From: Stenotrophomonas oahuensis
GTDB lineage: Bacteria > Pseudomonadota > Gammaproteobacteria > Xanthomonadales > Xanthomonadaceae
Direction: 5' to 3'
DNA length: 64,000 nt
Assembly (NCBI RefSeq): GCF_031834595.1
Contig: NZ_CP115541.1
Coordinates: 4,086,501 to 4,150,500 of the forward strand
Part shown: positions 32,501 to 52,209 of the stretch, piece by piece
How the letters are laid out: each line of letters starts with the position of its first letter
How positions within the stretch are numbered: position 1 is the first letter of the stretch
Translations under genes and position numbers: made by a program
Notes under the pieces: generated by a model
Told to the model about the DNA's origin: nothing
The model's input: only the letters and a program-made list of their open reading frames with translations
Database searches by the model: none

Positions 32501-35500
32501 AGCGGCAGGCCGACCCGCGCGCTGGCGGTGTTGCTGGCGGTATCGCTGCTGGCGGTGGCGGTGTTGTCGATGGCCTGGTCGCCGCCACCGTTGGTGTCGA
32601 AGTCGGCCTGGGTGGTGATGTAGGTCCCTTCGCAGCGGATGTCTTCGCCGGGGGCCAGTGCGGCCACCGGCAGGGTCGGCGTGCAGGTCAGCGCCGGCAG
32701 CATCGGGTCGCTCACGGTGACGTTGGTGAGCGTGCTGTTGCCGCTGTTGCTCGCCACCAGGGTGTAGAGGATGGCGTCGCCGGGGGCATTCACCTGTGCC
32801 ACGTCGGCGGTTTTCGACAGCGACAGTGCCGGGCTGCGCACCACCGGGATATCCAGTGCGCCGGTCCGGCTGATCGCCCCCGCGACCTGCGACGTGCCAT
32901 TGGCGTTGGCCACGTTGCTGATGACATTGAAGGTGTCGACCTCGGCCTGGGTCACCGTGCGCGCGGTGCCCGTGCAGACCACGCCTGCACCGGTGCCGGC
33001 CCCGCCAAACACCAGCACCTGGCCAGGTGCCATGTCCACGCTCGGGCACGACAGCCCCAGCGCGGGATCGGTCACGGTGACATCTTCAAGGGTGACGTTG
33101 CCGGTGTTGCTGACCGTGAACTGGTAGTTGATCGTGCCCGGCGCGGTGATGGTCGCCACGTCCGCGCTCTTGACGAGGGTCATCTGCGGGCCGCGCACCG
33201 GCAGGTTGACCTGGTGTTCAGCGGTGTCGGTCACCGTCGCCCCGGCCACCGGCGTGTCGGCCACCACGGTGGCGACGTTGTCGATCTGGCCATTGCCCGG
33301 CAGGCTGTCGCTGCTGCCGCTGTCGATGTCGGCCTGGGTGACGGTGTAGACGTTGCCGGTGCAGCCGCTGAACACCACGGTGTCGCCCGGCCCCAGGCTG
33401 GACAGCGGCAGGCACACCAAGCCCGGCAGCAGGGGATCGGTGACGGTGACATTGAACAGGGTGACATTGCCCGTGTTCTGCGCGCTGAAGCTGTAGGTGA
33501 TCGGCTGACCGGGGCCGCTCACCGATGCCACGTCGGAGCTCTTGCTGAAGAAGATCGCCGGTGTCCGTTGCGGCAGCGAGACGTCGGCGCTGGCCGTGGC
33601 GGTGACCGTCACCACCGGGTTGGTGCCGATCTGGTACTCGGCCTGGCCGGTGACGTCGTTGTGGATCACCCGGCTGTCGTTGACCGGGTTGCCCTGGTTG
33701 TCGATGTCCGACTGCTGCACGGTGTAGGTGTCGCCGGTGCACGAGAAATTCACGCTGCTGTTCGGCGGCAGCGTGGGAATCACATCGCACGACAGACCGC
33801 TGCCCAGCAGCGTGTCATCGATGATCTGCAGGTTCTGCAGGGTCACCGTGGAGGGGTTGTCGACCCGGAACGAATAGGTGATCACCTCACCCGTGGCGGT
33901 GACCGCGATGCGGTCGGCGGTTTTGACGAATTCCGGCTGCACGGTGCCATGATTGATGATCACCGTGGCCCCGTCGCTGTCATCCACCGGTGTGCCGTCA
34001 TAGTCACCGGCCGCGTTGGCGACATTGACCACCGCGTTGCTGCCGTCGATGTCGGCCTGGGTGACCGTGTAGGTGGCGGTGCAGCTGGCACTGCCGCCCG
34101 GAGCCAGGCTGAAGGGCGCTGCCGGCAGGCAGGTGATCGCGCTCAGACCGGCCTTCGGGTCGGTGACGCTGATGTTGTCGATGGTGACATTGCCCGGATT
34201 GGTCACCAGGAACGTGTAGGTGATCACATCACCGGCGGCACTGACCTGGGTCGGGCTGGCGCTCTTGTCCATCGCCAGCTGCGGAGCCGGCGGATCCACC
34301 GGTACGCTGGCGGTGGCGTCGCCGGTGGTACTACCGCCGCCCGGCGCAACCGCGGTGCCGGTGGCGGTGTTGTCGATGTCGCCGTCACCGCCGCCGCGGT
34401 CGTCAATATCGGCCTGGGTGATGGTGTAGGTGTTGCCGGTGCAGGCGATGTCTGCCGGTGGCGAGGTGCCGAAGCTGAGCGACTCGCCCGGAGCCAGCGG
34501 CCCGCCTGGCGGGCAGCTCAACCCGGGCAGCATCGGGTCGGCAATGGTCACGCTCTGGATCGTAGTGTTGCCGGCATTGGTGACGGTGAAGTTGTAACTG
34601 ATCACCTCGCCCACGCTGCCGGTGCCATTACCGTTGCTGTCGGCCAGGCTGGGGTCTTTGGTGAATTCGGCCACGTAATTGCGCGGCGGCAGCGTGGTGT
34701 CGGTGCTGGCGTTGTCGACCACCGTGTTGCCGTCGGGGTCGGTGCCGCCGGCGTTGACGGTGTTGGTGATGACGTCATCGTCGCTGCCATCGCCGCTGCC
34801 GACCCGGTCGATGTCGGCCTGGGTCACCGTGTAGCTGCCGGTACAGGAGATGCTGCCCCCCACCGCCAGCGTAGCCACCGGAATCGCCGGCGTGCACACC
34901 ATGTTGCCGGCGATCAGCGGGTCGGCGACCGTCACGTTGGTCAGCGGCACGTTGCCGGTATTGTTGACGGTGATGGTGTACGGAATGTTCTGACCCGCCG
35001 TGGTGACGCTCTGCACCGGGGTGATCTTGCTCACGTCCAGCGACGAACGCGGCACGAAGGTGTTGCTGTAGGTGCAGGTGATGGTGGTGTCGGCGTCTGC
35101 CACGGCAATGAGCAGTCCGTCGGCCGGGTTGGTATCGGTGCCGTCGCAGCTCAGCGAACTGCTGTAGTCACCGCCGTTGCCACCGGGGAAGCTTTCCGCG
35201 CCCAGGTTGCCATTCTCGAAGGCATATACCGTGACCGGCCCGACCTGGTCCGGGCCGGGCGAGGTGGAGGTGAATCCGGGCGTATTGTTGGTGAAGCCGG
35301 TACTGGGTGGAATCGACACGGTGGTCGGCGGGCCGCCGCTCCACACCTTGCGCACCACCAGTTGCGCGCTGCGCCGGTCGTTCACATAGGTACAGGTCAT
35401 CGGCCCGTCAGTGGGTCCCACCGTCAACGTGCCGGTGGTGGGATCGTTGATGACCAGGCCGCTGGTGTTGGTGCACGACAAAGTGGTGGCATACAGGTTG

Positions 35501-37875
35501 GAGGTGACCGAGCGGAACGACTCGGTCAGGCTGATCACATCGCCGGCATACACCGTCTGTGCGGGACCGGTGTCGGTCTGGCTGGCCGAGCCGTTGGCCA
35601 CCGAATCCAGCGAAGCCAGCCCGGTGGCGACGATGGTCACTTCGTCGTTGGCAAAGCCGTTGAGCCAGGTCTTCTGCAGGGTCAGCGTGGTGCTGCTGCG
35701 GGTGTTGGTGTAGGTGCAGACGATGGGGTTGCCGGCGTCGGCCGGGGTGATGTCCAGCGTGTTCGCCGCCTTGCCGTCGCTGCCACCCAGGCTGCCCGCG
35801 TTGCAGGTCAGCGCCACACTGTAGTTGGCCAGCGCGCTGCCGCTCATGGTTTCGGCGGGCAGCAGCGCCTGTTCGCCGATGAACACCGGCACCGTGGTGC
35901 TGTTGGCCTGGACCGAAGCGGTGGAGGTGAACGCGTTGGTGTTGTTCTGCAGGCCGCTGGTGCCGGCCAGTTGCGCCACGTCGCCGTTGCGGCTGTTGGC
36001 GGCCCACACCTTGACCAGCTGCAGCGTGGCCTGCGGGCGGGTGTTGGTATAGGTGCAGACAATGTCGGTGTCGCCCTGCCCGACCAGCAGCGTGCTGCCG
36101 GTCAGGCCGGCGGTGCCGGTACAGGCCAGGGTGCTGTTGTAGTTGGCCGCATTCCCCGGCACCGCGAAAGTCTCGGCCAGGGTCAGGTTCTCGCCGGCAT
36201 ACACCTGCACCGGCGTGCCGGTGTCGGTTTCGCTGGCGCTGTCGGCCACTGAGGTCAGCGCGATCGGGCTGGTGGTGCTGCCGGTGGCGCTGACCTGCAC
36301 GGTTTCGCCAATCGCGGCATCCACCCAGGTCTTGCGCAGGGTCAGGTTGACCGCGCGGCGGGTATTGGTCTGCGTGCAGCTGATGGCAGCGTCGCCGGTC
36401 GCGACCGTGAGCTGGTTGCCGGCCAGCGGCGTGCTGTTGCCCGTACACGCCAGCGTGCTGTCGTAGTTGCCAGGGTTGCTGAGCGTCTCGGAGATCGTGC
36501 CGGTTTCACCGGCATACACCGTCACCGGGCTGCCGGTGGTGGTGTTGCTGCCGGTGGAGGTCGAAAGGCCGCTGCTGGCGGTGTTCTCGAATCCGCTGCT
36601 GCTGACGGTGGCGGTGTCGCCGGGTAGACCGTCGACCCAGGTCTTGCTCAGCACCAGCGTCGCCTGTTGGCGGGTGTTGGTCTGCGTGCAGACGATGGCG
36701 GTGTCGCCCGCCGTCACCGTCAGCGTGTTGCCGGACAGCGGCGTCGTATTGCCGGTGCAGGCCAGCGTGGCGGTGTAGTTGCCTGCATTGCTCAGCACTT
36801 CACTGAGCGTGCCACTGTCGCCGGCATACACGGTCACGGCGGTGCCGGTGGTGCTGTTGTTGCCAGTGGAGGTGGACAGCCCGGTCGTGGCCTCATTGGT
36901 GAAACCGGTGCTGGTGACGGTTGCCGTTTCACCGGCCAACGCATTGACCCAGGTCTTCACCAATTGCAGCGTTGCTGCCTGCCGGGTATTGGTGAAGCTG
37001 CAGTTCACTCCGGTGTTGGTGGGCATGCTGAGCGTGCCGCCCGGAGCGGGCACCGCTGCGCCATTGTCCGCCCGCGCACAGGCAAGCACGGTGCTGTAGT
37101 TGCCCGCGGTGCCGCTGGTGAAGGTCTCCGCAACGCTGACCGCCGCACCCGGCGCAACCGCCGCACGACCGGCCACCGAGGCCCCACCCACGGTGGAGTT
37201 GCCGGTCTGCAGCACGATCACCTCATCGGCGCTGCCGCTGATGTCCAGGTCCACGGAGTTGCCGTCCTGGCCATTGACCCACAGCTTGGTCAACAGCAGG
37301 CTGAAGTACACCGGGTGGGTAACGGTGCAGGTGGCAGCCGGGGTGCAGCCCTGCCCGCCGGTAACCGTATTGCTGACCGTGCCGCTGGCATCTGCATCCA
37401 CCGTGGCCTGATACGACCAGCTGTATGTCCCGGGTGCGCTTCCGACGGGCAACGTGCACTGCGTGGTCTGCCCGGCCCCGCTGCATCCGGCCGGCAGCGA
37501 ACCGCCGACCAGGGTGAGCCCGCTGCTGAGCGTATCGGTGAATACGGTGGGTTCGGTGGTCGTCGCGCCGCTGACGGTGACCGTCAGCGTGAAGCCCAGC
37601 GTGTCGCCGGGGGCGACCGGTTCCCCATCGGCGGGGCTACCGGTCTTGCCGACCGTGGCCGCGTACACCTGCACGGTCACCGCGTCGGTGTTGTCGCCGG
37701 GGTTGACGTCGGTCTGGCCGGCCGGCGGCTGGATGCTGGCGCTGTTCTGCACCGAGGTCTGGGCGACGGCGTCAATGGTCACCAGCAGGGGCAGTGCGAC
37801 CAGCAGCCAGCGACAGCACCTTGAGCGGATGTGCTTCGCTGCTGTGCTGGCCCCTGCTTCGCCGCTGCTCCGCAC
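26539..37875 (-). CDS. Giant DUF11-repeat surface protein with C-terminal OmpA-like domains (3778 aa)
   Basis: One uninterrupted 3778-codon gene with a GTG start and a signal peptide (WLLVALPLLVTIDAVAQ). After one DUF11 unit come about seven prealbumin/Cna-like units of ~95 residues, each opening with a KTWVN-type motif (LQLVKTWVNA, LVLSKTWVDG, LTLRKTWVDA). About 20 DUF11/DUF7507 units follow, with the recurring YTVTQADIDAG...VTNTATA motif. The C-terminal ~1000 residues include uneven DUF11 units, a beta-rich domain with EF-hand-like DDRDGDSW, and two OmpA-like modules (LGEVFFAPDSAQIAERY and GTVLFDTDSAVIRPAM) that should bind peptidoglycan. The gene is coupled to the barrel protein downstream. 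A very long cell-wall-tethered fibre or adhesin is the likely role. Confidence 0.92.
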   Translation of the reverse strand: MRSSGEAGASTAAKHIRSRCCRWLLVALPLLVTIDAVAQTSVQNSASIQPPAGQTDVNPGDNTDAVTVQVYAATVGKTGSPADGEPVAPGDTLGFTLTVTVSGATTTEPTVFTDTLSSGLTLVGGSLPAGCSGAGQTTQCTLPVGSAPGTYSWSYQATVDADASGTVSNTVTGGQGCTPAATCTVTHPVYFSLLLTKLWVNGQDGNSVDLDISGSADEVIVLQTGNSTVGGASVAGRAAVAPGAAVSVAETFTSGTAGNYSTVLACARADNGAAVPAPGGTLSMPTNTGVNCSFTNTRQAATLQLVKTWVNALAGETATVTSTGFTNEATTGLSTSTGNNSTTGTAVTVYAGDSGTLSEVLSNAGNYTATLACTGNTTPLSGNTLTVTAGDTAIVCTQTNTRQQATLVLSKTWVDGLPGDTATVSSSGFENTASSGLSTSTGSNTTTGSPVTVYAGETGTISETLSNPGNYDSTLACTGNSTPLAGNQLTVATGDAAISCTQTNTRRAVNLTLRKTWVDAAIGETVQVSATGSTTSPIALTSVADSASETDTGTPVQVYAGENLTLAETFAVPGNAANYNSTLACTGTAGLTGSTLLVGQGDTDIVCTYTNTRPQATLQLVKVWAANSRNGDVAQLAGTSGLQNNTNAFTSTASVQANSTTVPVFIGEQALLPAETMSGSALANYSVALTCNAGSLGGSDGKAANTLDITPADAGNPIVCTYTNTRSSTTLTLQKTWLNGFANDEVTIVATGLASLDSVANGSASQTDTGPAQTVYAGDVISLTESFRSVTSNLYATTLSCTNTSGLVINDPTTGTLTVGPTDGPMTCTYVNDRRSAQLVVRKVWSGGPPTTVSIPPSTGFTNNTPGFTSTSPGPDQVGPVTVYAFENGNLGAESFPGGNGGDYSSSLSCDGTDTNPADGLLIAVADADTTITCTYSNTFVPRSSLDVSKITPVQSVTTAGQNIPYTITVNNTGNVPLTNVTVADPLIAGNMVCTPAIPVATLAVGGSISCTGSYTVTQADIDRVGSGDGSDDDVITNTVNAGGTDPDGNTVVDNASTDTTLPPRNYVAEFTKDPSLADSNGNGTGSVGEVISYNFTVTNAGNTTIQSVTIADPMLPGLSCPPGGPLAPGESLSFGTSPPADIACTGNTYTITQADIDDRGGGDGDIDNTATGTAVAPGGGSTTGDATASVPVDPPAPQLAMDKSASPTQVSAAGDVITYTFLVTNPGNVTIDNISVTDPKAGLSAITCLPAAPFSLAPGGSASCTATYTVTQADIDGSNAVVNVANAAGDYDGTPVDDSDGATVIINHGTVQPEFVKTADRIAVTATGEVITYSFRVDNPSTVTLQNLQIIDDTLLGSGLSCDVIPTLPPNSSVNFSCTGDTYTVQQSDIDNQGNPVNDSRVIHNDVTGQAEYQIGTNPVVTVTATASADVSLPQRTPAIFFSKSSDVASVSGPGQPITYSFSAQNTGNVTLFNVTVTDPLLPGLVCLPLSSLGPGDTVVFSGCTGNVYTVTQADIDSGSSDSLPGNGQIDNVATVVADTPVAGATVTDTAEHQVNLPVRGPQMTLVKSADVATITAPGTINYQFTVSNTGNVTLEDVTVTDPALGLSCPSVDMAPGQVLVFGGAGTGAGVVCTGTARTVTQAEVDTFNVISNVANANGTSQVAGAISRTGALDIPVVRSPALSLSKTADVAQVNAPGDAILYTLVASNSGNSTLTNVTVSDPMLPALTCTPTLPVAALAPGEDIRCEGTYITTQADFDTNGGGDQAIDNTATASSDTASNTASARVGLPLPNQSLSIDKVAGTPTVALGRDPAVTDAGDTVTYTFTVTNTGNQSLSALAVIDTHLDAAATCDRTTLTATGPDSVATCTGVYTITQADMDNGTVTNTATAEGTPPGSARVSSSPDSAVVNLQALPVLVLDKSAAAPTVSGGALPGLTDAGDTISYSFVVTNNGNVTLNNITVGDPLPGMPPITCPPGQLAPGASTTCSTVVYTITQADLDAGQVVNTATGQGTPPSGPDATGDDSTTTPLAASPAMTMLKTASPTEYFIVGQQISYSYLVTNTGNVSLSALTLTDDRIASVSCPATLLAPGASTTCTATYLITQADLDAGSVTNTATATATPAQGTLAPVTAQATIDGIQTRSIPLLKTTSTPSYSAVGDPLIYGYQVTNTGNVTLTDQVSIVDDKILAPNVVNCPALPPGGLAPGADIVCTATYIVTQADLDAGSVTNIAVARAGTLLSPTDTVTINAVQAPGLSLDKTTSTASYDAVGDILAYSYLVTNTGNVTLTAPVTVTDDRITAPNTVVCPALPAGGLAPGGQLTCTATYTITQADLDAGSVTNTATAQSGTTTSGPDSVTVTGVQNPALSMAKAATNVPTPTVLGSVITYDVTGTNTGNTTLGNVVISDPKLTPNSTTCASVAPGGTCVLTGIYTVTQPDVDAGQVENIGSGDSDSTDPVPSNPVIVPVQQTRGLTLDKSSSTATYTAVGDLLAYSYLVTNSGTVTITAPITVTDDRITAPNTVSCPALPPGGLAPNGQLTCTGSYVVTQADLNQGSVTNIATATDGTSTSPQDSVTINATQLPAITLDKTASVADSNSDGITGDAGDVITYAFSVTNTGNVLLAPVTVSDPLLPGLTCTVLALPPGATASCTASNNTYVITFADETATTVNNTATATGNAPGTAPDATATDSVTTPTALTPAAITVNKVSAPVTTTQVAPGDVVQFTVTTTVANNETHEVVTLTDTLSDGYTLVAVTNAGAYTCNTANPLVCTLPVGTAPGSYPLVYTASVDADATGTLRNAVVPTKPAGVDPDPVCQSCSTEHPVVPSTATVTKAADPVSGSFVQRGQTITYTVTTVIAGSVTTQPLLLSDTLDAGLGQATVVTAGAYSCSANLLCVLPAGTLPGTYPLVYQVTVAADANGTQRNVITAGNLPGGDPDPTCVSCSTEHIVEQPALETTKVLSANSNASGEVTTGATLTYTVRATNTGNTTLVNLTIDDALITPGRAVCASVAPGGSCELTGTYVVTQADTDAGTVDNTADITAEPSAGGAPLPPAVCPAGSADARCHPVLNLPIARRPTLATTKTATLSVDRGTPGKGNIDDVITYAVGVTNTGNVTLDQLVVTDTFQGGATTTLDCAPTQLAPAQSATCAPYDHTITEAEAGVDGGTLTNRVLATAQPTGAGLASATATAAAVVEVENEPASIRLTKVAGAREVKIGDLVRYTLTAENVGDIDLVDGYLIDTPPAGFTYVEGSLQGDDDDHHVTASGISPLRINDLDIAAGNTARISYLMRVGAGVRPGTQINRAQTYAPTDLPASNVATAEVVLGNDPLLDDSLIAGTVFDDRDGDSWQDPAELTGLRVQGGFAADAYVPGSTQVDRGNGPQPVADASAPLLHGLALGTLSGRRSEAEPPPQIVIRQRLREPRFTDDFVLDNRQGVRVHLDAQGGTRIERSGDAAKGLTAAAPRVQRTVSPGEGGYVVDYVIANDGIDEAGIPGVRIGSVEGLLMETDQFGRYHVVGVSGGGQARGRNYVLKVDAATLPEGSTFITRNPQLRRVTPGVPTRFDFAVQLPATVLEEKREVEMVLGEVFFAPDSAQIAERYRPVIEQMAAQVRQHGEGEVIVSANGGSEVIAYERANAVREALLKALDGGAAQVSVVARADVDDPASLLVGVNQGGSLVGTVLFDTDSAVIRPAMQPLLARIAQDLEQRGGGRLVIVGHADVRGAVPYNQALGMRRAEAVYAALREQLSPAVRDKVRVDASADPAAPLDARPTRGEGR

Positions 37876-38102: not shown

Positions 38103-38546
38103 ATGAAGATCATTACCCTACGCGCCGCCACCGCTGTGCTGCTGGTGCTGCTGAGCCTGCTGGTGGTTCCGCTGGTGCGTGCCCAGCAGGCCCCGTTGCC
38201 GTCCAGCGATGCCGCGGACATCGCCGAGCGTCCGCACGCCTCCAACAAGTGGCGAATCGCGTTCGACGAGCGTGCGAAGTCGGACGGCACCATCAGCTTC
38301 CGCATCTGGCCAGCGCAGGCGGATCCGATCCTGATCGAGGTGCCGATCAAGGATGGCGTGTCAGAAAACCACATTGCCGCGGCAGTGCGTGATGCGATTG
38401 GCACGCGCCTGGGCAAGGGGTATCACGTGGAAACTGACGACGGCGAGGACGTGCTGGTGAAGGCGCGCCATGGCACCGCCGATTTCGGACTCGACCTCGT
38501 GAGCAACACCGTCCGCGACGTGGATATCAAACTGCACCGGGAGTAG
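38103..38546 (+). CDS. Small exported hypothetical protein (147 aa)
   Basis: A 147-residue protein with a Sec signal peptide (ITLRAATAVLLVLLSLLVVP, cleavage likely after VRA). The mature part of ~120 residues has no family I recognise. ATG 38103 is chosen because it begins the signal peptide; the frame is open to 38046 but without hydrophobic sequence. The final codon is followed by a TAG that belongs to the GTAG of a SMAG repeat. It shares an upstream element with the lipoprotein gene at 12881, which suggests common regulation. It is divergent from the giant DUF11 gene. It might modulate that envelope protein, but no direct evidence exists. Confidence 0.8.
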   Translation: MKIITLRAATAVLLVLLSLLVVPLVRAQQAPLPSSDAADIAERPHASNKWRIAFDERAKSDGTISFRIWPAQADPILIEVPIKDGVSENHIAAAVRDAIGTRLGKGYHVETDDGEDVLVKARHGTADFGLDLVSNTVRDVDIKLHRE

Positions 38547-38610
38547 AGCCGGGCTTGCCCGGCTGCTTTTCCAGATCGCGCCAACGGCAGCCGGGCAAGC
38601 CCGGCTCTAC
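38543..38610. repeat. SMAG REP pair
   Basis: A complete inverted pair, GTAGAGCCGGGCTTGCCCGG and its complement. The TAG of the first unit is the stop codon of the preceding gene. The following stretch, 38611-38819, has no gene and is the presumed promoter region of the lanthipeptide locus. I could not find a convincing -35/-10 pair. Confidence 0.9.
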
Positions 38611-38819
38611 ATATCCCATCGCGCCAGCAGGTCCGCCGCGCACCCATTCTGTGAAGCACTTCCCAGTTTGACTCGCGACAAAAATGGGCGCACCGTTAAA
38701 ACGCGGCCAGACCTTTGTTGTTCGGTATCGCAGTTGCTTCTTGATGCCAGGGAATGGCCGTAACGAAAGGACGTTCATCATCGAACGCCCTCATCGCAAC
38801 AACACAAGGAGAAAGCGGA

Positions 38820-39029
38820 ATGCAACTGAATGACGACGTCGTTTCAGGCTGGCTCAACGGTGCCGACAGCGTAGATGGCTGCGACAATCCGGCCGGTTCC
38901 CTTTTCATCTATGGCCAGCAGGCAACCGACGCTGCATTGACCCACGCTGCCCCGATGCTCGCCACCGGCGGTGCTGCCACCCTGTGCACCACCACCGCTT
39001 CTGTGGTGAACAACTGCCTTTGTTGCTGA
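38820..39029 (+). CDS. lanA: Class II lanthipeptide precursor (LanA)
   Basis: A 69-residue precursor peptide. ATG 38820 has a strong AAGGAGA eight bases upstream; the open frame upstream to 38754 is unlikely to be used. The acidic leader starts MQLNDDVVSGWLNG and ends in the double-glycine motif ATGG (Gly50-Gly51), the usual cleavage site for LanT/C39 peptidases. The predicted core, residues 52-69, is AATLCTTTASVVNNCLCC. It has four Cys (56, 66, 68, 69) and five Ser/Thr (54, 57, 58, 59, 61), so up to four lanthionine or methyllanthionine rings are possible. A fifth Cys (21) is in the leader. The LanM gene begins 95 bases downstream. No transporter/peptidase gene is nearby in the window. Confidence 0.88.
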   Translation: MQLNDDVVSGWLNGADSVDGCDNPAGSLFIYGQQATDAALTHAAPMLATGGAATLCTTTASVVNNCLCC

Positions 39030-39041
39030 TCTGAGCTGTAC

Positions 39042-39074
39042 CGGCGCGCAGTGGCCTCAGGCCGCTGCGCGCCG
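39042..39074 (+). terminator. 15-bp hairpin between lanA and lanM (attenuator-like)
   Basis: CGGCGCGCAGTGGCC pairs with GGCCGCTGCGCGCCG around a TCA loop, with one wobble pair. No T tract follows. It sits 12 bases after the lanA stop and 50 bases before lanM. This arrangement commonly allows partial termination or transcript stabilisation, so that precursor is made in excess over enzyme. Confidence 0.7.
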
Positions 39075-39124
39075 TCGCGCGGGCCATCGCCTGCGCCCTA
39101 CCACCACAGACTGCAGGGGATGCA

Positions 39125-42019
39125 ATGACCGTCGCAACTGCCGCCGAAACCTTTTCGCGCATCGTGCACCATCGGCTTTCCGCGCACCGCACCCAATTAC
39201 AGACCGGATTGCAGCAGCTCTCCCCTGGGCTCGCGTCAGAAGAAGTTGAACGCCTGTTCGAACAGGCCTATGCCGCCCTGCATGCCAATGCGCAGCTGAA
39301 GCTCAATCGCGTGCTGCTGCTGGAACTGCACGCCGGCGTGCGCAGCGGCCAGATTACCGCGACCAGCACGTCGGAGCAACTGCAGCAGTTCGAAGCCTGG
39401 GCCGCGACACCCTCCTTCGCCGCCCACGTGGCGCATCGCTATCCCCCACTGGATGCGCGCCTGGACGGAGTTGCGGATGCGTACACCCGCGCCGTGATTG
39501 AACTGGCCACGCATATCGCTGACGACCGCGAGGCGCTGCGCACACTGCTGCAGGTGCCCGCCGGCAAGCTCCTTAAAGTGGCCTTCGGTTCCGGCGACAC
39601 CCACGGCGGCGGGCGCGCTGTGGCAGCGGTGACGTTCGAAGGCGGCACCGTCATGTACAAGCCGCGCTCCCTGCGCATCGATGTGGTGCTTGATGCGTTC
39701 CTGGAAGCCGTCTTCCCGAATGATCCATTACGGGTCCGGATTCCACGCGTGCTCGACCGGGGTGCCCACGGTTGGGCTGCCTTTGCCGCGCATCGCTACT
39801 GCAACGACGATGCCCAGCTTGCTCGTTACTACCAGGGCCTGGGGCACTGGCTGGCGGTGCTGCGCCTGATCGGCGGCACCGACATCCATCTTGAGAATCT
39901 GATTGCGGTGGGCGCGACCCCGGTAGTGATCGACGCCGAAAGCGTGTTCTGCCTGCCGATCGAAATGGCAGCCTCCGGCTACGGCCATGCGCATGATCTG
40001 GCCGCCATGCTGATGCGCAACTCGGTGTTACGTACCGGCATTGTGCCGTTCCGCACGTCCGGGCTGGGCATGGACGGCGTGGATCTCTCCGCCGCAGGTG
40101 CGCTGCCTGGCGAACAACCCAAGGTGCGGGTGCCGGTGCTCATGGAAGACGCGAACACGCCACCCCGTCTGGGCATGATGGAAACCGACTTCGCTCCGGC
40201 GCAGAATCATCCGTCTCCCCGCCCGGACGTCTCCCGGTTCTGGGACGAGATCAGCAGCGGCTTCATGGCCGCCAGTAGCCGCCTTCGCGAGCTCGATCAC
40301 AGCGGCCGCCTGGACGATCTACTGGCTCCCTTCGCAGGCTGCGAAGTGCGCGAGATCAAGCGCCCCACCATGGCGTATGCCGAGATTGGCCGCATGCTGT
40401 GGCATCCGGCGTCGCTGCACAACGAACCGGCAGCGGTCGAGCGCGCGCTCGACCTGCTGGTCCGCAACGCCGCCATCTCACCGGCCGCTTCGGCAGAGCC
40501 GGCGGAAGTACTGCAGGAGATCGATGACATGCGCTTCGGTGACATTCCCTTGTTCAGCGCCGTGCTGGATGCGGGACGCATTGCCACAGTGGTCGACAAC
40601 TGGCGTGCGATGCGCATCGACCTGGAGGAAGTGACCATCCGCAGCACGCTGGTGGCGACCGACCTCAATGAACATGCCATGGTCCGCGCGGAAGCGCGCG
40701 ATGGCTTTTCCTATGCGGCGAAAGCACCGCATGGCGATGCGCTGGAGGCCCGTCGGCGTCGGCAGGCGGCTGAAGCGGTCAACAATCTGATCCGGCTCTC
40801 GGTGCGCGGCAACGACGGTACGATGACCTGGATTACCCCTGAGATCACCCAGACCGGCTGGACCGTGCGGCCGGTGCAGCCCGACGTGTATTTCGGGCTG
40901 GGCGGCATTGCCTTCAGTCTGGCGGCGTACCATCAGGAGGTGCAGCAGGGCCGTGCTGACGCCGCGCCCGGTGTGGAGGCCGCGATGAACGGTGCCATCG
41001 CCCTCTACCTGCGCATGTGCGCGCTTGATCTGCCCGATGTCGGCGGCGGCCTGGTCGGTGCCGGCTCGCGGGTCTGGACGCTGCTGGCCCTGCATGACCT
41101 GCTGGGACGTGCGGATCTGCTGGATGCGGCACGTTCGGCTGCGGCGACGTTGGAGCGCACGGATTTCGCCGAGGTTCCAAAGTACGAAATGCTCGACGGC
41201 GTATCCGGTGCGATCGTGCCGCTCATCGGGCTGGCCGAGGCGACTGGCGAGGTGCGCTGGCTGTCGATTGCCGCAACCGCCGCGCGTCGTCTGCAGGCCA
41301 CCGCCATCGTTGACGCCGGCGGCGCGCGTTGGCCGTCGCCGCAGTTTGATGAACCCATTGGCGGTTTCGGTCACGGTGCGCTGGGCATTGGTTGGGCGCT
41401 GGCCCGACTGGCGTTGACCGAGGCCGGGACCGTCGAGGACCGCGCCGCATGGCAAACGCTTGCCGAGGGCGCGTTCGCGTTCCAGGACGCATTGTTTGAA
41501 CCAGAAACCGGTCGCTGGCACGACCTGCACCTGAAGGACGGCCAGAAGACCTTCCCGACCTGGTGCCATGGCAGCGTCGGTATGGGACTGGCCGCCGCCG
41601 ACCTCTACGCACGAACCGGGGATCCCGCCTATCTGCGCGATCTACGTCGCGCGGTTGCCGACGCCAACGGCCGTTGGGGCTTCAGCCACACGCTGTGCCA
41701 TGGCGATCTTTCCACCCGCGAACTGCTGGTCAAGGCGGCGCAACTGGATCCCCAGGGCTGCCCCTACCCGGTGGATACCGCTGCCATGGAGGTGATCTCA
41801 TCCATCGAGGAGCACCGGGGGATGGTCGGTGGCCTGACCCGTGCCGCGTTTACCCCGGGATTGATGATCGGGCTCGCCGGCGCAGTGTATGGGTTCTGTC
41901 GTATGCACCCGGACTGCAACCTGCCTTCGCCGCTGCTTCTGGAACGTGCCGCTTCGGCAAGCACTCTACCTTCCACCGAACGGCTGAAGGCATCCGGGAC
42001 GGAGCCAGTCCCCGCGTAG
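39125..42019 (+). CDS. lanM: Class II lanthipeptide synthetase LanM
   Basis: A 964-residue bifunctional synthetase. The N-terminal ~600 residues are the DUF4135 dehydratase. They contain GDTHGGGRAV (from 157), YKPRSLRID, the kinase-like DIHLEN (253-258) and VVIDAESVF (Asp270, Glu272), which phosphorylate and eliminate Ser/Thr. The C-terminal ~400 residues are the LanC-like cyclase with zinc ligands Cys814 in TWCHGSVGMG and Cys858-His859 in HTLCHGDLS. ATG 39125 follows a GGGG-containing leader. Length and motifs are complete, so the enzyme should be functional on the adjacent LanA. The TAG stop is inside a SMAG repeat. A partial second copy of the C-terminus lies at 51996-52209. Confidence 0.95.
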   Translation: MTVATAAETFSRIVHHRLSAHRTQLQTGLQQLSPGLASEEVERLFEQAYAALHANAQLKLNRVLLLELHAGVRSGQITATSTSEQLQQFEAWAATPSFAAHVAHRYPPLDARLDGVADAYTRAVIELATHIADDREALRTLLQVPAGKLLKVAFGSGDTHGGGRAVAAVTFEGGTVMYKPRSLRIDVVLDAFLEAVFPNDPLRVRIPRVLDRGAHGWAAFAAHRYCNDDAQLARYYQGLGHWLAVLRLIGGTDIHLENLIAVGATPVVIDAESVFCLPIEMAASGYGHAHDLAAMLMRNSVLRTGIVPFRTSGLGMDGVDLSAAGALPGEQPKVRVPVLMEDANTPPRLGMMETDFAPAQNHPSPRPDVSRFWDEISSGFMAASSRLRELDHSGRLDDLLAPFAGCEVREIKRPTMAYAEIGRMLWHPASLHNEPAAVERALDLLVRNAAISPAASAEPAEVLQEIDDMRFGDIPLFSAVLDAGRIATVVDNWRAMRIDLEEVTIRSTLVATDLNEHAMVRAEARDGFSYAAKAPHGDALEARRRRQAAEAVNNLIRLSVRGNDGTMTWITPEITQTGWTVRPVQPDVYFGLGGIAFSLAAYHQEVQQGRADAAPGVEAAMNGAIALYLRMCALDLPDVGGGLVGAGSRVWTLLALHDLLGRADLLDAARSAAATLERTDFAEVPKYEMLDGVSGAIVPLIGLAEATGEVRWLSIAATAARRLQATAIVDAGGARWPSPQFDEPIGGFGHGALGIGWALARLALTEAGTVEDRAAWQTLAEGAFAFQDALFEPETGRWHDLHLKDGQKTFPTWCHGSVGMGLAAADLYARTGDPAYLRDLRRAVADANGRWGFSHTLCHGDLSTRELLVKAAQLDPQGCPYPVDTAAMEVISSIEEHRGMVGGLTRAAFTPGLMIGLAGAVYGFCRMHPDCNLPSPLLLERAASASTLPSTERLKASGTEPVPA

Positions 42020-42122
42020 AGCCGGGCTTGCCCGGCTGAGGCACGCATTGCCCCGTAGAGCCGGGCTTGCCCGGCTGCTCTTCGCATGTGCGCCAAAGGC
42101 AGCCGGGCACCCCCGGCTCTAC
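42016..42122. repeat. SMAG cluster after lanM (one single unit plus one pair)
   Basis: A single unit (42016-42039) whose TAG ends lanM, then about 15 bases, then an inverted pair (42055-42122). The same order (single unit, short gap, pair) follows the lanM remnant at 52206-52312, so the repeats are part of a duplicated block. Confidence 0.88.
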
Positions 42123-42184
42123 CGGAGCTGTCAGCGGCATGATAGAAAGGCGACCGCCCCCATCGTCCTTTCTGCCGAGGCACC

Positions 42185-42904
42185 ATGTCTCCTGCGTGGA
42201 CCAACCCGTACGGCCAGCCGATCGGCATGCCCCTGCCCGGCTGGCGCGCGCGCCAGCGCCCGAATGCAATCTCGCTGCAGGGGCGCTTCTGCCGGCTGGA
42301 GCCGCTGGACCCGGCCGTACATGGCCAAGCCCTGGCCGAAGCCTACGCACTCGCCGCCGAACCGCGCGACTGGACCTACATGGCGAACGGCCCATTCGAC
42401 TCTGACGCCGCCTTCTTCCAGTATCTGTCCACAGCCGCACGCAGCGACGACCCACGCCACTACGCCGTGGTCGATGCCCGCAGCGGACGCGCCACCGGCA
42501 CGCTGGCGCTGATGCGACAGGATCCGGCCAATGGCGTCATCGAAGTCGGCCATGTGATGTTCTCGCCGTTGCTGCAGCGCACGCCGGCCGCAACCGAAGC
42601 GCAACACCTGCTGATGCACTACGTATTCGACGTGCTGGGTTATCGCCGTTACGAATGGAAGTGCGACAGCCTCAATGCCGGCTCGCGCAAGGCGGCCGAG
42701 CGGCTGGGCTTCCAGTTTGAAGGCATTTTCCGCCAGGCGCTGGTGTACAAAGGCCGCAATCGGGATACCGCGTGGTTCTCGGTAATCGACAGCGAGTGGC
42801 CGAAGCTGGATGAAGCGTTTACTACGTGGTTGGCTGCCGACAACTTCAGTACCGAGGGCACACAGGTGCGGTCACTTGCCGCCTGCCGTGGTGCCGCGTC
42901 GTAG
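42185..42904 (+). CDS. GNAT family N-acetyltransferase (RimJ/RimL-like)
   Basis: A 239-residue acetyltransferase of the type often annotated ribosomal-protein serine/alanine acetyltransferase. The GNAT core is visible: LEPLDPAVHGQALAEAY, HYAVVDARSGRATGTLALM, VIEVGHVMFSP (beta4 and acetyl-CoA region) and WKCDSLNAGSRKAAERLGF, then GIFRQALVYKGRNRDTAWFSVID. It lies downstream of lanM, separated by SMAG repeats and a ~165-base gap. Tailoring of the peptide N-terminus is thinkable, but a housekeeping enzyme is equally likely. The stop TAG is inside a SMAG-like GTAG at 42901. A diverged C-terminal fragment of a similar gene is at 44563-44700. Confidence 0.9.
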   Translation: MSPAWTNPYGQPIGMPLPGWRARQRPNAISLQGRFCRLEPLDPAVHGQALAEAYALAAEPRDWTYMANGPFDSDAAFFQYLSTAARSDDPRHYAVVDARSGRATGTLALMRQDPANGVIEVGHVMFSPLLQRTPAATEAQHLLMHYVFDVLGYRRYEWKCDSLNAGSRKAAERLGFQFEGIFRQALVYKGRNRDTAWFSVIDSEWPKLDEAFTTWLAADNFSTEGTQVRSLAACRGAAS

Positions 42905-42940: not shown

Positions 42941-42962
42941 TCCGGGGTCCATTGACCCCGGA
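42941..42962. terminator. Bidirectional terminator-like hairpin
   Basis: TCCGGGGTC and GACCCCGGA form a perfect 9-bp stem with a CATT loop. It is placed between the convergent GNAT gene and the truncated dehydrogenase. There is only a weak A/T flank. A related hairpin is at 52402-52425 in the paralogous block. Confidence 0.55.
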
Positions 42963-42986
42963 AAGCGGCAGCATTCCCGCGGCGTG

Positions 42987-43827
42987 TCAGCCTCCGGCCG
43001 GTACAGGCGTTTCAGTTGCCGGCGCAGCCTGCGGCACCACATCCGGCGTAATCCGCCACACGGTATTAGCCAGATCATCGGCGACGATCAGCGCGCCCTT
43101 CGGGTCCAGCGTCACGCCCACCGGACGCCCACGGGTCTTGCCATCTTCACCGCGGAAGCCGGTCGCGAAGACCACCGGCTCACCGCTCGGCTTGCCGTTG
43201 CTGAAGGGCACGAACACCACCTTGTAGCCCACCGGCGGATTGCGGTTCCAGCTGCCGTGTTCGCCAACGAACACGCCATCGGCAAACGCGCCCCCCATCA
43301 CCGGCGAGGAGAAGGTCACGCCCAGCGCAGCCACATGCGAGCCCAGCGCGTAATCCGGGGTCAGCGCAGTCTCCACCAGCTCCGGCTTCTGCGGCATCAC
43401 CCGGGTATCCACGTGCTTGCCCCAGTAGCTGTACGGCCAGCCGTAGAAGCCGCCTTCTTTCACCGAGGTCAGGTAATCGGGCACCAGATTCGGACCGATC
43501 TCGTCGCGTTCGTTGACCACCGCGTACAGCGTGCCGGTGCCTGGCTGCACGGCCAGTGCGGTCGGGTTGCGGATGCCGCTGGCGTAGGTACGGTGCGCGC
43601 CGGTCTGGGCGTCGATCTCCCACACCACGGCACGGTCCACTTCCACGTCCATGCCGCGCTCGCTGACGTTGCTGTTGGAGCCGATGCCCACGTACAGATG
43701 GCGGCCATCGGCGCTGGCGGCCAGCGATTTGGTCCAGTGGTGGTTGATCGCCGACGGCAGGTCCGTCACCTTCACCGGCGCGGCGCTGGCCTTGGTCTCG
43801 CCTTCGGTGTAGTCGAACCGCACCAGG
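42987..43827 (-). pseudogene. Truncated sorbosone dehydrogenase-like gene (3' two thirds)
   Basis: This is a near-identical copy of the C-terminal ~280 residues of the intact gene at 52438-53784, with about 11 amino-acid differences over that span. Conserved segments include VRFDYTEG, SKHDT-equivalent SNVSERGMDVEVDRAVVWEI and FVGEHGSWNRNPPVGYKV. Homology stops sharply at base 43827 (CACCAGG); the signal peptide, lipobox and first ~165 residues are missing. Beyond that point the DNA encodes a DUF4034 fragment on the other strand. The open frame continues to 43871, but those extra residues are not homologous. It is probably not expressed as a functional lipoprotein. Confidence 0.9.
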
Positions 43828-44560
43828 ACACCTGGGACACCCGCGCGGCGCGCTGCTACCTGTGGAACCAACGCTACCCGCGTTCATCCACCGCACAACT
43901 TGCATGTGCCCAGCTTGTGGACAATTTTGCATGGTCATTGCGCGGAACAAGCGGGTACGCAATCGAAGTGAAACAGGACAGCTGGCCGAAGTTCAAAGCC
44001 CAAAGCCGGTTTGCCGCGCAGTACCTGCTCAAGATGGACAAACGGGCCCGGAAGGATCCGCACTGGTATGTACTGGCATTGAATGTCGCCCGCTACGAGG
44101 GCGTGGACGTCCAGAGTTTCATGAACCTCTACGATGAGGGCATTCGCAGACATCCCCGCCTTTACGGCATCCATTTCAGTGCCGTCGAGTACTTCGTGCC
44201 GAAGTGGGGTGGGAATGCGGACGCGATCGATGCCCTCGTCCAGCGCGCCCAGAAACGGCTTCCGCGCAAGGAACACGATGCGCTGTACGCGCGCATGTAC
44301 CGGCTTGCTGCGCAGAGCCAGTTCCGCACCTCGCTCTTCGCCTGGTCCAAGGGGGATGGCCCACCATGCGAAGCGGTTTCCAGGACATCCTTGAACACTA
44401 CCCCTCGGAATGGAACCTTCAGTCCTTCGCCTACTTCGCCTACTTCGCCTGCGAGGCAGGCGACATGGAGACCGCACGCACGCTGGTGTCGAAGATGACG
44501 CAGATTCCGGATCGCGAAGCCTGGCTGGGAAAGGACAGCTATGCACGCTGTCAGTCGAAG
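43828..44560 (+). pseudogene. DUF4034-like gene remnant, frameshifted
   Basis: Sequence on the plus strand encodes a DUF4034-type helical repeat protein: DNFAWSLRGTSGYA, DPHWYVLALNVARYEG, HFSAVEYFVPKWGGNADAID and KEHDALYARMYRL. The 5' end is missing, replaced at 43827 by the truncated dehydrogenase. Near 44350-44360 the frame shifts: SKGD continues only in another frame as WPTMRSGFQDILEHYPSEWN. A single lost T would explain this. A short in-frame duplication FAYFAYFAC is also visible. At about 44560 it joins an acetyltransferase fragment. The gene is broken in at least three ways and should not yield an active protein. Confidence 0.82.
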
Positions 44561-44962: not shown

Positions 44963-45029
44963 CGGCCATTGAAAGATCACATCTGGACTGACGGAACAGC
45001 ACATGCAGGGATCCAGCGGAAAGCAGTCG

Positions 45030-47885
45030 ATGAGTAAGAAAACGTCGGGTCGCATTGCCTTGATGGGCGCAGCGCTGGCCTCCCTGTCGAGCTTCACCGT
45101 CGCGGCACAGACCTCAACCTCCAACTTCGAGTGGGAGGAATTCTCTGACCGCCTTGCAAAGACGGAGAGGATCAGCCCGTTGGGGCCGGACCTGTTTGGC
45201 GACAAAGTGCGGCTGGCGAATGGCGAACTCGGGTTCGAGTTGACCGACATCGCCCTGCCCGGAAACAACAGCCTTGAGGTCAAACTGACGCGCTCCTATC
45301 AGGTGATGAGTCGCAAGACCTATGTGCCGGACGCCATGTTGGCAGACTGGCAGATCAATGTTCCGAACATCAGCGGTAGCTTCGCACCAGACTGGGGCGT
45401 GGGCAGCGACGTCGCCAACGCAACACGCTGCACAAACGGCTGGCCGCCCGACGTACCCTTCCGATTCGAAACGCGCGAGTTCTGGACCGGATTGAGGGTG
45501 GAAATCCCCGACGGCGGCGGAGAGCTGCTACGCACAGCGGCACGAACCTCGCAGCCACAAGACGGTGCCTCGTACCCGTGGACCACGACTGGCCAGATCT
45601 TCTTTACCTGTCTTCCTTCCATCAAGAATGCCGGCGGCGAAGGCTTCCTGGCCATCACGCCAGATGGAACGCGCTACTGGTTCGACTGGTTGGCCCAGCG
45701 GATTGAACCAACACTCAAGAAGTACGAGCTCGTCGAGGACGACGGCACCGCGCCCACTCCGCAACCATGGCACTTCCTGCAGCGCCGCAGGAACATGTTG
45801 CTTGCGACCAAGGTGCAGGACCGTTTCGGCAACACCGTTCAGTACACCTATGCGAATGCGTGGAATGCATCACCTCGCCTGACCGCTATCACCGCCAGTG
45901 ATGGCCGGCAGCTTACCCTGACGTACAGCGGCGACAATGTGAGCGCTGTCAGCGACGGAGCGCGCCAGTGGCAGTATCGCTACAACGACAGCGCGTCACG
46001 TCGCAGCCTGGCGGCCGTTGCACTTCCAGACGGTAGCCAATGGACGATCGACTTCAACGACTTCACCCGTGCCGTACTCAAGTACGCTGAAGTGGTTTCG
46101 CCCGAGCCCGGCGAGTTGTTCCGCACCTGCTTCCAAAACGAGATTCCGCTGCCCTATCCGTCGGCATTGATCACCGGAACGATGGTGCATCCCTCGGGAG
46201 CGGTGGGTCGCTTCGCCGTCGCTGCGCTGGAACATGGGCGTAGCCATGTACCACTCAATTGCCAGAACGTGGAATACAACGCCGGCTTTGGCAACAATCA
46301 GAACGACGATATCAATACCTATGCGATCTCTGGTTACAGCCTTACCTTGACCGCAAAATCCATCAGCGGGCCGGGATTGCCCAATCTGCAGTGGCAGTAC
46401 GCCTATACACCCAACATCAGCTACGACACCTACCCCGGCCAAGATCCACTGAATCCGGTTTGCCAGTATGGCAGCTCCACCGCCTGCGAAGCACCTCTCT
46501 GCACGAGCGAGGACTGCGCACAGTCCAACACCACGACGGTCACTGGTCCCGGCGGGGAGTGGATCCGCTACAGCCATGGCAATTCTTACCGTTACAACGA
46601 GGGGAAACTTCTGAAGGTTGAGGTCGGCACCGGCCCGAACGACATCCAGCGCACCACGTCCTATCGCTATGACCTCGGATTCGCCGGCCAGAATTACCCG
46701 GCCAGATATGGTGTAAGTACGCAGTTCTTTGGAGAGGGCTGGGCCAGCGAGTACCACCGCCCGCAGCTTGAAATGCACACGAGCCAGCAGGGAATCGTTT
46801 TCTCGTCTGTGTCCAGCGAGCTGGACTACTTCGCCCGTCCGCATCGCGTCGCAAGGTATAGCACGCTGGGGTTTGCGCGTACCGACGGTCACACCTATTA
46901 CGACGACACGGCGCGCTGGGTCGTAGGCCAGCGTCAGAGCACTACCTGCCTTGCACCTGCCAGTTGTGCAGGGCAGGTCATGGCCAGCGTGGTGTTTGAC
47001 CCGGAGACTGCGCAACCCGTGCATTTCAGCGCTTTCGGCGCGCTGCAGCAGACGTTGACCTACCATCCCACTGGCAGCATCGCAACCGTCTCCGACGCGC
47101 GCGACGGCGCTGGTGTGGATACCACCATGACCTTGCTTGACTGGAAACGGGGCATCCCACAATCGGTCTACTACGGAGACGGTGCCATGGAGCTGGCGAC
47201 AGTGAATGATCAGGGTTGGATCACGCAGTACGCCGATGCCAATGGCTTCCCGCGCAGCTTCGCCTATGACGCCATGGGCCGGCTGGCACGCAAGGACCTG
47301 CCGCAGGGCGACACAGTGGCATGGAACCCGACCCTGTCCGCCTTCGAGGCGGTGCCGTATGAAGAGTACGGGTTACCGGCTGGTCACTGGCGCGGCAGCA
47401 GCCGGACGGGCAACTGGCGCAAACAGGTGTACTACGACGCGCTCTGGCGCCCGGTCGTGACCGTCGAGGAGGACCTCGCCAACCCACAGGCCACGCAGCG
47501 GTGGGTCGCAACCCGCTACGACGACATGGGTCGAGTATCCTTCACCTCCTATCCTCGAAACCTCCATCAGGAAGGATCTGCCAACTACACCGATGCGGGC
47601 CTTCAAGGCATTTACACCGTCTCCGATCTGTTCGGGCGGCCGCTCACCGTCCAGCAGGACTCCGAACTTGGCCTATTGACGACCCGGAACGAGTACCTGA
47701 CCGGCTTCCAGACCCGTACAACCTCACCAAAGGGGCAGAAGACCACCATTCGGTACATGGCCTTTGACAAGCCCGACACCGGATTGCCCGTCTTCATCGA
47801 CGAACCCGGTGGCGTCATCACCACCATCGAGCGGGACGCCTACGGAAAGCCGCTGGAGATTTCGCGCAGCGGGGGTGTGCAATGA
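45030..47885 (+). CDS. Exported RHS/YD-repeat protein, first half of a split system
   Basis: A 951-residue protein (ATG 45030; ATG 45003 adds nine residues). MSKKTSGRIALMGAALASL begins a clear Sec signal peptide cleaved after VAAQ. The remainder resembles the N-terminal and YD-repeat portion of RHS proteins, with motifs such as RFGNTVQYTYANAWNASPRL, YRYNDSASRRSL, FPRSFAYDAMGRLARKDLPQ and TIERDAYGKPLEI. It stops within the YD array. The TGA overlaps the ATG of the next gene, which continues the array and carries the RHS core. A long DUF-like N-terminal region with paired Cys (STACEAPLCTSEDC) suggests folding outside the cytoplasm. The two halves probably assemble into one shell. Base composition is less GC-rich than in adjacent genes. 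Confidence 0.88.
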   Translation: MSKKTSGRIALMGAALASLSSFTVAAQTSTSNFEWEEFSDRLAKTERISPLGPDLFGDKVRLANGELGFELTDIALPGNNSLEVKLTRSYQVMSRKTYVPDAMLADWQINVPNISGSFAPDWGVGSDVANATRCTNGWPPDVPFRFETREFWTGLRVEIPDGGGELLRTAARTSQPQDGASYPWTTTGQIFFTCLPSIKNAGGEGFLAITPDGTRYWFDWLAQRIEPTLKKYELVEDDGTAPTPQPWHFLQRRRNMLLATKVQDRFGNTVQYTYANAWNASPRLTAITASDGRQLTLTYSGDNVSAVSDGARQWQYRYNDSASRRSLAAVALPDGSQWTIDFNDFTRAVLKYAEVVSPEPGELFRTCFQNEIPLPYPSALITGTMVHPSGAVGRFAVAALEHGRSHVPLNCQNVEYNAGFGNNQNDDINTYAISGYSLTLTAKSISGPGLPNLQWQYAYTPNISYDTYPGQDPLNPVCQYGSSTACEAPLCTSEDCAQSNTTTVTGPGGEWIRYSHGNSYRYNEGKLLKVEVGTGPNDIQRTTSYRYDLGFAGQNYPARYGVSTQFFGEGWASEYHRPQLEMHTSQQGIVFSSVSSELDYFARPHRVARYSTLGFARTDGHTYYDDTARWVVGQRQSTTCLAPASCAGQVMASVVFDPETAQPVHFSAFGALQQTLTYHPTGSIATVSDARDGAGVDTTMTLLDWKRGIPQSVYYGDGAMELATVNDQGWITQYADANGFPRSFAYDAMGRLARKDLPQGDTVAWNPTLSAFEAVPYEEYGLPAGHWRGSSRTGNWRKQVYYDALWRPVVTVEEDLANPQATQRWVATRYDDMGRVSFTSYPRNLHQEGSANYTDAGLQGIYTVSDLFGRPLTVQQDSELGLLTTRNEYLTGFQTRTTSPKGQKTTIRYMAFDKPDTGLPVFIDEPGGVITTIERDAYGKPLEISRSGGVQ

Positions 47886-50800: not shown

Positions 50801-50974
50801 ATAAATGCAATGAGTAACGCCGCAAATGCTGGCGCTAAACTCAAGGGCTCTAGATTGGCGACTGTGCGCGTGAGTGGCGGAGGCAAGAACAAGTTGATGA
50901 CCCCTTGTGCCACCTGCCAAGCCGTAGCTGATAAGTTGGGCGTTGTCACAGTGTCCCCACCCCTCAAGCCATAG
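47882..50974 (+). CDS. Exported RHS protein with C-terminal YwqJ-like deaminase toxin
   Basis: A 1030-residue polymorphic toxin. It has a signal peptide (LLLASLMLAVSDVMAQ), then a bacterial Ig-like domain (PTISIATPTAGAMFPAGASV...VSISVST), then YD repeats (RRTYDARNRIATLRF, MQYDDRNRLIAAG). The RHS core has YYDPNLARFLSADPESVD and NNSPYTFVDPDGR (829-833), where self-cleavage normally releases the C-terminal toxin. Residues ~834-1030 are variable-type sequence ending in a deaminase signature: HGCCAEINAM (CAE at 971-973) and MTPCATC (Cys1009, Cys1012). This is the zinc/proton-shuttle pattern of YwqJ-like and related nucleic-acid or nucleotide deaminases. The small gene after it is the likely immunity gene. 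The substrate base is unknown. Confidence 0.9.
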   Translation: MRAQQVLQRSWGERLFAKALLLASLMLAVSDVMAQASLELTAPGGTTFTSPSGFDLMLVANDGSTGNTFEQVEFYWLTRNGDRIDFDQVMPSRIYHESGLPSGVYQYSLEGRAMYRDARGNERYKSILPIPRLTVTVLAGYGGITASASSCTIPWGQSSCPVTINWTSNAPAAQVFMSALDNSNMQLVGQGQSGAITASVTPAGQRFHLRNGAATFATTEARGIATVNQAPTISIATPTAGAMFPAGASVPISASAADSDDGVGRVDLKVDGTTVASLTSPPYSTRLTTLAPGTHTVTATAIDTRGTSTTSAPVSISVSTIPGTTLTRRYVYDSHQRLCKSIEPETGSTVMGYDAAGNLAWSAAGLDLPSTTSCDLAAAEASGRAVRRTYDARNRIATLRFPDRNGDVDYQYTPDGLVQQTTAYNDSGTTTATSSYQYNKLRLLSGESLAQTGATTRSIGYGYSPNGHLAGQTYPSGRYIDYAPNAMGQATRAGDYASGVSYYPNGGIKQFTYGNGVVHTTTQNARRLPWRSVDSNIIGFETTLDANGNVIAIADLQLGATYGRQMQYDDRNRLIAAGSAMFGGDGWHRFSYDALDNIRSWSLGGVKADQYWFDAKNRLTNVRNEYGATTAGLSYDLQGNLHTKNGREYSFDYGNRLRAVVGSASYRYNAAGLRVLSTDSNGAKEESFYSTAGQLLSEIDELGGSFTETIYLSGSAIVQLQGSTVGTAVVYQHTDPQGSPTASSGPSGQLLQRTHYEPYGKPINRVVDGIGYAGHKMDADIDLSYMQQRYYDPNLARFLSADPESVDLGSGRNFNRFKYGNNSPYTFVDPDGRAESPYLMRLIIPGQVTWDNGVTAAEQGDYPMAIALGATAIAEAGMAVVTLGQGSAIMNSSRAVAQEIAAVSAARNAAQAARNAKAEGGAVAGLVTEAGEVFTGASTKAGGPGIATNRTVSDAAEQLAQSERSAVHGCCAEINAMSNAANAGAKLKGSRLATVRVSGGGKNKLMTPCATCQAVADKLGVVTVSPPLKP

Positions 50975-51995: not shown

Positions 51996-52209
51996 CGAAG
52001 TGCTCGACGTTGGCGGCTGGCTGACCCGTGCGGCGTTTACTCCCGGCCTGATGATCGGGCTCGCTGGCGCAGTGTATGGGTTCCGTCGCAAGTACCCCGG
52101 ATCCAATCTGCCCTCGCCGTTTCTGCTGGAGGGTGTGGGTTTGGTTGGCACCGTACCCGGCACGGAACGACTGGCGACCGCAGCCGCGAAGGAACCTATG
52201 CCCGCGTAA
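51996..52209 (+). pseudogene. lanM 3' remnant
   Basis: The last ~70 codons of a second lanM: LTRAAFTPGLMIGLAGAVYG matches the intact enzyme exactly over that stretch (41830-41890), then YPGSNLPSPFLLE against HPDCNLPSPLLLE and TERLATAAAKEPMPA against TERLKASGTEPVPA. It has no upstream lanM sequence; the preceding DNA belongs to the RHS module. Divergence is larger than between the two dehydrogenase copies. It ends with TAA where intact lanM has the SMAG-borne TAG, because this SMAG unit is degenerate (TAACGCCGGGCTCGCCC). Confidence 0.9.

Follow-up and report, generated by a model that had tools for sequence, protein, structure and literature searches.

How is a lanthipeptide cut and exported when its precursor and synthetase genes have no transporter gene beside them? 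This question is raised by a two-gene locus of Stenotrophomonas oahuensis, located in a stretch of 64,000 nucleotides of contig NZ_CP115541.1 (positions 4,086,501 to 4,150,500, forward strand; hereafter the window, meaning the whole stretch of DNA that was analysed). Here, a short precursor gene, lanA, is followed by lanM, which encodes a class II lanthipeptide synthetase. The two genes very probably make a ring-bearing peptide of a family that has already been described, in which the precursors carry the domain DUF6229. We consider it likely that they form a class II cassette of this family which yields an antibacterial product, relies on cutting and export without a C39 peptidase, and is exchanged between strains as an allele. 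The parts of the cassette are as follows:

38820..39029, plus strand: lanA, a 69-residue DUF6229 lanthipeptide precursor (Pfam PF19740; 10 homologues; dN/dS 0.18)
38820..38972, plus strand: presumed leader of LanA, residues 1-51, ending in MLATGG (conserved aligned block; putative cut after Gly51)
38973..39026, plus strand: presumed core of LanA, AATLCTTTASVVNNCLCC, residues 52-69 (CTTTxS in all 18 subgroup precursors, 17 of which have four core Cys)
39030..39124, plus strand: lanA-lanM spacer with a G+C-rich hairpin (predicted 11-pair stem, 12 genus spacers)
39125..42019, plus strand: lanM, class II lanthipeptide synthetase, 964 residues (TIGR03897; aligned with LicM2 and CylM)
39440..40561, plus strand: dehydratase domain of LanM (DUF4135), residues 106-479, with Asp253, His255, Asn258, Asp270, Arg409, and Thr415 (PF13575, 285 bits)
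40871..41926, plus strand: cyclase domain of LanM (LANC_like), residues 583-934, with Cys814, Cys858, and His859 (PF05147, 123 bits)

The locus shows the features of a class II lanthipeptide system, namely a single enzyme that joins a dehydratase to a LanC-like cyclase, with catalytic residues in place, and an adjacent precursor rich in Ser, Thr, and Cys. An earlier sequence-only reading of the window had described a minimal class II LanA-LanM locus with a complete synthetase, and the coordinates, lengths, and sequences that it gave for both genes were reproduced here. Profile scores and alignment confirm its account of the enzyme. LanM reaches 483 bits against the NCBIfam LanM model TIGR03897 (cut-off 304), keeps the residues aligned to Asp347, His349, Asn352, Asp364, Arg506, and Thr512 of CylM, and contains all three zinc-ligand residues of the cyclase. 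We take these CylM-aligned residues and the Cys/Cys/His set to have the corresponding catalytic roles. The clusters of LicM2 and CylM are those of Gram-positive bacteria. Both proteins, LicM2 (6st5) and CylM (5dzt), resemble LanM in their dehydratase/cyclase architecture and catalytic residues but are distant from it, with alignment scores of just 145 and 87 bits, respectively.

LanA matches Pfam DUF6229 (PF19740) with 64.8 bits (cut-off 25), covering positions 1-62 of the 62-position model; no match was found in NCBIfam. A protein search returned 10 precursor homologues at 99 to 61% identity. The idea that LanA founds a new precursor family is ruled out, as it belongs to PF19740, which has already been published. 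An AAGGAG precedes the lanA ATG, and alignment of the leaders reveals a conserved block, MxLNDxVVxGWLxG...NPAGSLFIxG. The gene is maintained under purifying selection across the genus: the median ratio of nonsynonymous to synonymous substitution rates (dN/dS) is 0.18 among 15 coding-distinct genus sequences (105 pairs), with values of 0.14 for alignment columns 1-49 and 0.35 for the later columns (101 usable pairs each).

The published work cited here by PubMed Central accession was available in part, and what we draw from it is confined to those parts. DUF6229 proteins have been named lanthipeptide precursors, and the name "rhodanocins" has been proposed (PMC9576775). The Dyella product, made in E. 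coli, carried four dehydrations and three rings, was weakly active on Klebsiella (126 μM), and was probably not natively cut; the C39 protease LahT150 failed to cut this relative despite a possible double-Gly motif (PMC9576775). Rhodanocin, from the LanII biosynthetic gene cluster of Dyella sp. 333MFSha, likewise has a DUF6229 precursor, a class II LanM, and that possible motif. Going by its published description, it differs in having a 23-residue core with rings 6-11, 12-23, and Cys8-14 and three ring Cys (PMC9576775), whereas LanA holds four Cys in 18 residues, arranged as CTTTxSxxxxCxCC.

The LanA C-terminus reads MLATGG-AATLCTTTASVVNNCLCC, with four Cys and five Ser/Thr in the 18 residues downstream of the GG. 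By our tally, the core pattern occurs in exact form in 18 distinct Stenotrophomonas-type precursors. The motifs [AVIL]TG[GA] and CTTTxS are present in all 18. Four core Cys are found in 17, and in 17 the stretch from the GG or GA to the first Cys includes at least one Thr; the sole subgroup precursor without this spacer Thr and with three core Cys is a single case (P0005). The double-Gly leader of the sequence-only reading is present as a motif of the subgroup and is a putative cleavage site; among the 40 other family precursors extracted, GG, GA, or GS precedes the first core Cys in only 10. If cut after Gly51, the core of LanA would have a calculated mass of 1786.772 Da unmodified, 1714.730 Da after four dehydrations, and 1696.719 Da after five. 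Because the four Ser/Thr of the conserved block all lie C-terminal of its first Cys, this Cys is predicted either to bond with an upstream Thr of shifting position or to take part in one backward ring, as Cys8 does with residue 14 in rhodanocin. Separately, three other loci of the family (L055, L056, and L057) have tandem pairs of DUF6229 precursor genes before a single LanM, with near-identical cores and differing leaders.

Such systems had been thought rare in this group, a view at odds with their distribution. DUF6229 has 54 matches in 34 of 395 family genomes, is found in 28 of 299 order genomes by match counts, and has no match in 14 control genomes. Of 91 genus genomes, 16 encode a full-length LanM relative, the present one included; identities in the remaining 15 are 65-70%. 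A 17th gives only a weak partial match. A separate scan of genome contigs with LanM returned only two Luteibacter loci, at 49%. We fetched 40 stretches of ~19 kb, which cover 43 of the other 53 DUF6229 matches in family genomes, and in all 40 LanM adjoins the DUF6229 match. This includes L038 and L071, whose precursors our regular expression missed and whose Pfam matches nevertheless lie beside LanM. The two-gene layout is usual within the family.

Among unique class II precursors of Lysobacter, 21 of 27 were DUF6229 proteins (PMC11451712). In the family stretches fetched here, LanM likewise adjoins the precursor and the leader block is shared. The core patterns differ, and of the 40 extracted precursors outside the Stenotrophomonas type, 30 have no GG ahead of their first core Cys. 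A class II lanthipeptide region has been reported in S. rhizophila T3E (PMC12589107), whose likeness to our locus in genus and class goes by an antiSMASH call. In a comparison of 33 Stenotrophomonas genomes, class I and class III lanthipeptide clusters were strain specific, and the available part names no class II cluster (PMC11138164). The accessible literature on rhodanocin and on lanthipeptides of Stenotrophomonas, Xanthomonadaceae, and Lysobacteraceae yielded no described product with a CTTTxSxxxxCxCC core. To that extent the core is indeed unmatched, as the earlier reading had held, but the precursor family is published and 18 precursors share the pattern. On sequence grounds, the locus is a new Stenotrophomonas branch, with its own core pattern, within the published DUF6229 lanthipeptide family.

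The 95-base gap between lanA and lanM contains a hairpin whose predicted 11-pair stem was compared across 12 genus spacers. Nine pairs persist across all 12, including one that is preserved by a two-sided change in four spacers; the outermost pair is lost in two spacers, and so is the innermost in two. No T run follows the hairpin on its 3' side in the window, and we therefore read it as a probable attenuator or stabiliser. A consensus scan of 38550-42250 found no sigma-70-like promoter.

The earlier reading had also noted that LanT and C39 peptidase genes are missing from the window. This holds for Pfam scans of part of its open reading frames (ORFs), namely 28 further ORFs and four neighbours, which detected no C39 peptidase or ATP-binding cassette (ABC) exporter, and for a tblastn search of the 64 kb with an HlyB-type ABC transporter as query, which gave no match. 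The window does contain one subtilase gene (16813-18648, minus strand) and two MFS genes. The same absence is seen among the 34 DUF6229 genomes, many of them drafts in contigs, where no C39 hit lies closer to DUF6229 on its contig than 59 kb (G369, 46 bits) and four genomes have no C39 hit. Members of the DUF6229 family characteristically lack a linked C39 exporter, in line with the earlier proposal that maturation uses proteins encoded elsewhere.

In a comparison of 41 loci, based on ORFs of at least 70 residues that lie outside the interval from -900 to +2950 relative to the LanM start, no protein family was common to more than six loci, and most shared families track close kinship. As this comparison skipped the genes right after LanM, it missed ABC exporter genes in five loci. 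These were found by tblastn across 50 fetched loci and the window with a single query, the HlyB-type transporter of the genome itself (L002): in 5 of the 50 fetched loci (L038, L042, L045, L046, and L048, with LanM 37-39% identical to ours), an ABC exporter gene adjoins LanM. The L048 exporter, the one of the five that was scanned, has no C39 match in Pfam, and those of the other four loci are 51-78% identical to it. The five loci make up a divergent LanM branch, and the membrane part of the L048 exporter has no Pfam ABC_membrane match.

The S. oahuensis genome is 100% complete in two contigs and yields two C39 hits. The first, a secreted peptidase, is encoded next to FapE- and FapC-like genes and has FapD as its best NCBIfam match (253 bits, under the cut-off of 330). 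The other is the HlyB-type transporter (1074 bits, above cut-off), which has an adjacent HlyD gene and, by eye, no Cys at the catalytic position. No active C39 transporter was found elsewhere in the genome, and no C39-ABC transporter with a catalytic Cys was found in the cluster. The closest relative of the LanM-linked exporters in this genome is an ABC protein (G000:C1:4560147-4561631) with 35% identity and no Pfam C39 match. A best hit at 33-35% identity is found in 15 of the 16 LanM-bearing genus genomes. This protein resembles a general exporter, and we regard it as no more than a candidate for the export of LanA.

The chromosomal site provides a possible view of how the cassette moves. 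In a near relative (G631), the same site has the order GSDH, GNAT, lanM, lanA, and a 166-residue ORF. Its GH92, MFS, GSDH, and GNAT proteins are 98.6, 97, 97, and 90% identical to those of the window, versus 69.5% for LanM and 78% for LanA. In the more distant G387, GSDH is 79% and LanM 68% identical. The LanM of the near relative is therefore as divergent as that of the distant one, which fits a replacement of the cassette by recombination and suggests that it is exchanged at its site as an allele. A clean empty site was not recovered from the 12 LanM-lacking genomes with GSDH, as GSDH was present in all 12 and the GNAT gene, 166-residue ORF, and DUF11 gene in none of the stretches fetched from them. 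Two further features bear on the history of the site:

52003..52206, plus strand: remnant of another LanM gene, reduced to its 68 C-terminal codons (64% identity to LanM 898-964)
42956..43835, minus strand: incomplete second copy, next to the cassette, of a GSDH-type gene (52405-53287; 91% identity in nucleotides, 95% in protein)

The remnant lies 10 kb downstream of the cassette, next to the intact GSDH gene. Together with the partial GSDH copy, it shows that a duplication took place in the past and that a second LanM was lost. Among 16 LanM sequences compared, the remnant is closest to the window's own, and its descent from the G631 allele is unsupported. Matches to GTAGAGCCGGGCTTGCCCGGCT occur 12 times in the window, where none is expected by chance, including at 38543-38610, 42016-42122, and 52244-52312; they flank the cassette on both sides and also follow the LanM remnant. 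They resemble the GTAG-tagged REP (SMAG) repeats known from Stenotrophomonas. The region from the intact LanM to the remnant contains, at 45003-51411, a pair of YD/RHS-repeat ORFs (45003-47885 and 47882-50974), of which the second has a terminal deaminase domain of YwqJ-like type (26.8 bits, cut-off 25.9). A 142-residue ORF that follows it has no Pfam match and could encode its immunity protein. On the other side of the cassette, a surface-protein region (16813-37875, all on the minus strand) comprises the subtilase, a YadA-type adhesin (18663-21776), a SpaA/DUF11 protein (22115-22864), and a 3778-residue ORF with DUF11-like repeats by eye (26539-37875).

Taken as a working model, LanM would recognise the conserved leader of LanA and phosphorylate Ser and Thr in its C-terminal part, with elimination of phosphate giving dehydroalanine and dehydrobutyrine. 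The zinc cyclase would then add the Cys thiols, so that the CTTTxSxxxxCxCC core could gain as many as four (methyl)lanthionine rings. The spacer hairpin probably keeps LanA output above that of LanM. Leader cutting and export would fall to proteins encoded elsewhere, none of them a C39-type LanT; most likely, a C39-less ABC protein exports the peptide and a separate envelope or secreted protease cuts the leader. The product is probably an antibacterial peptide directed against related bacteria, and the cassette would pass between strains as an allele.

A classical double-Gly lanthipeptide, cut after Gly51 and exported by a bacteriocin-type C39-ABC transporter encoded elsewhere, would also explain the bare locus. 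The [AVIL]TG[GA] motif of all 18 subgroup precursors agrees with the C39 cleavage rule "lv-x-GG" (PMC5557850), and 8 of the 16 LanM-bearing genus genomes have transporter-type C39 hits, here defined by our own limit of at least 85 bits and counted by score, not by catalytic Cys. The other eight have none, however, and such hits show no association with LanM in the genus (8 of 16 versus 28 of 75 other genomes, p 0.40). With only the FapD-like peptidase and the Cys-less HlyB-type transporter in the genome itself, and the failure of LahT150 on the Dyella relative (PMC9576775), we find this explanation unlikely. A bolder variant of C39-less export is that DUF6229 lanthipeptides form a class matured without a dedicated peptidase-transporter, in which, in this genus, FapD as a housekeeping amyloid protease of the periplasm would cut at [AVIL]TG[GA] and a general C39-less ABC exporter would release the product. 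A bare lanA-lanM pair would then work in any recipient, which would explain why it moves and why alleles of it replace one another at one chromosomal position. We give this proposal a low probability; FapD is periplasmic and its target unclear (PMC5557850). The FapC-, FapD-, and FapE-like genes form a Fap-like functional amyloid operon (L001, G000:C1:257500-260901), with best NCBIfam matches under the cut-offs.

It is also quite improbable that the locus is silent or decaying, its ability to yield mature peptide having been lost in this strain. The LanM remnant and partial GSDH duplication do show rearrangement and loss nearby, and the lack of an exporter at the locus and of a sigma-70-like promoter in the consensus scan could be read likewise, but both genes are intact, the catalytic residues are kept, lanA is constrained across the genus, and a layout of two genes is the family norm. 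That the modified peptide stays in the cell, acting there or as a signal, seems most improbable: most fetched loci lack a linked exporter, but five have one beside LanM, and the product of a relative inhibits Klebsiella (PMC9576775). Several observations weigh against the C39-free, exchangeable antibacterial cassette that we favour. The transporter-type C39 hits of eight LanM-bearing genomes are unlinked but present; no self-immunity gene was identified, immunity and regulator genes not having been the target of a dedicated search; and the exchange of alleles rests on a single near relative, G631, whose 166-residue ORF reaches just 82% identity across 105 residues, so that part of the flank is also divergent.

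With this locus, a family in which one product has been solved gains a Stenotrophomonas branch that has a core pattern of its own, and the site, where one-sided flanks of 97-99% identity contrast with a LanM of 70%, looks like a natural cassette exchange. The locus also opens to testing the question of how Gram-negative bacteria cut and export the peptides of two-gene lanthipeptide cassettes that lack LanT.

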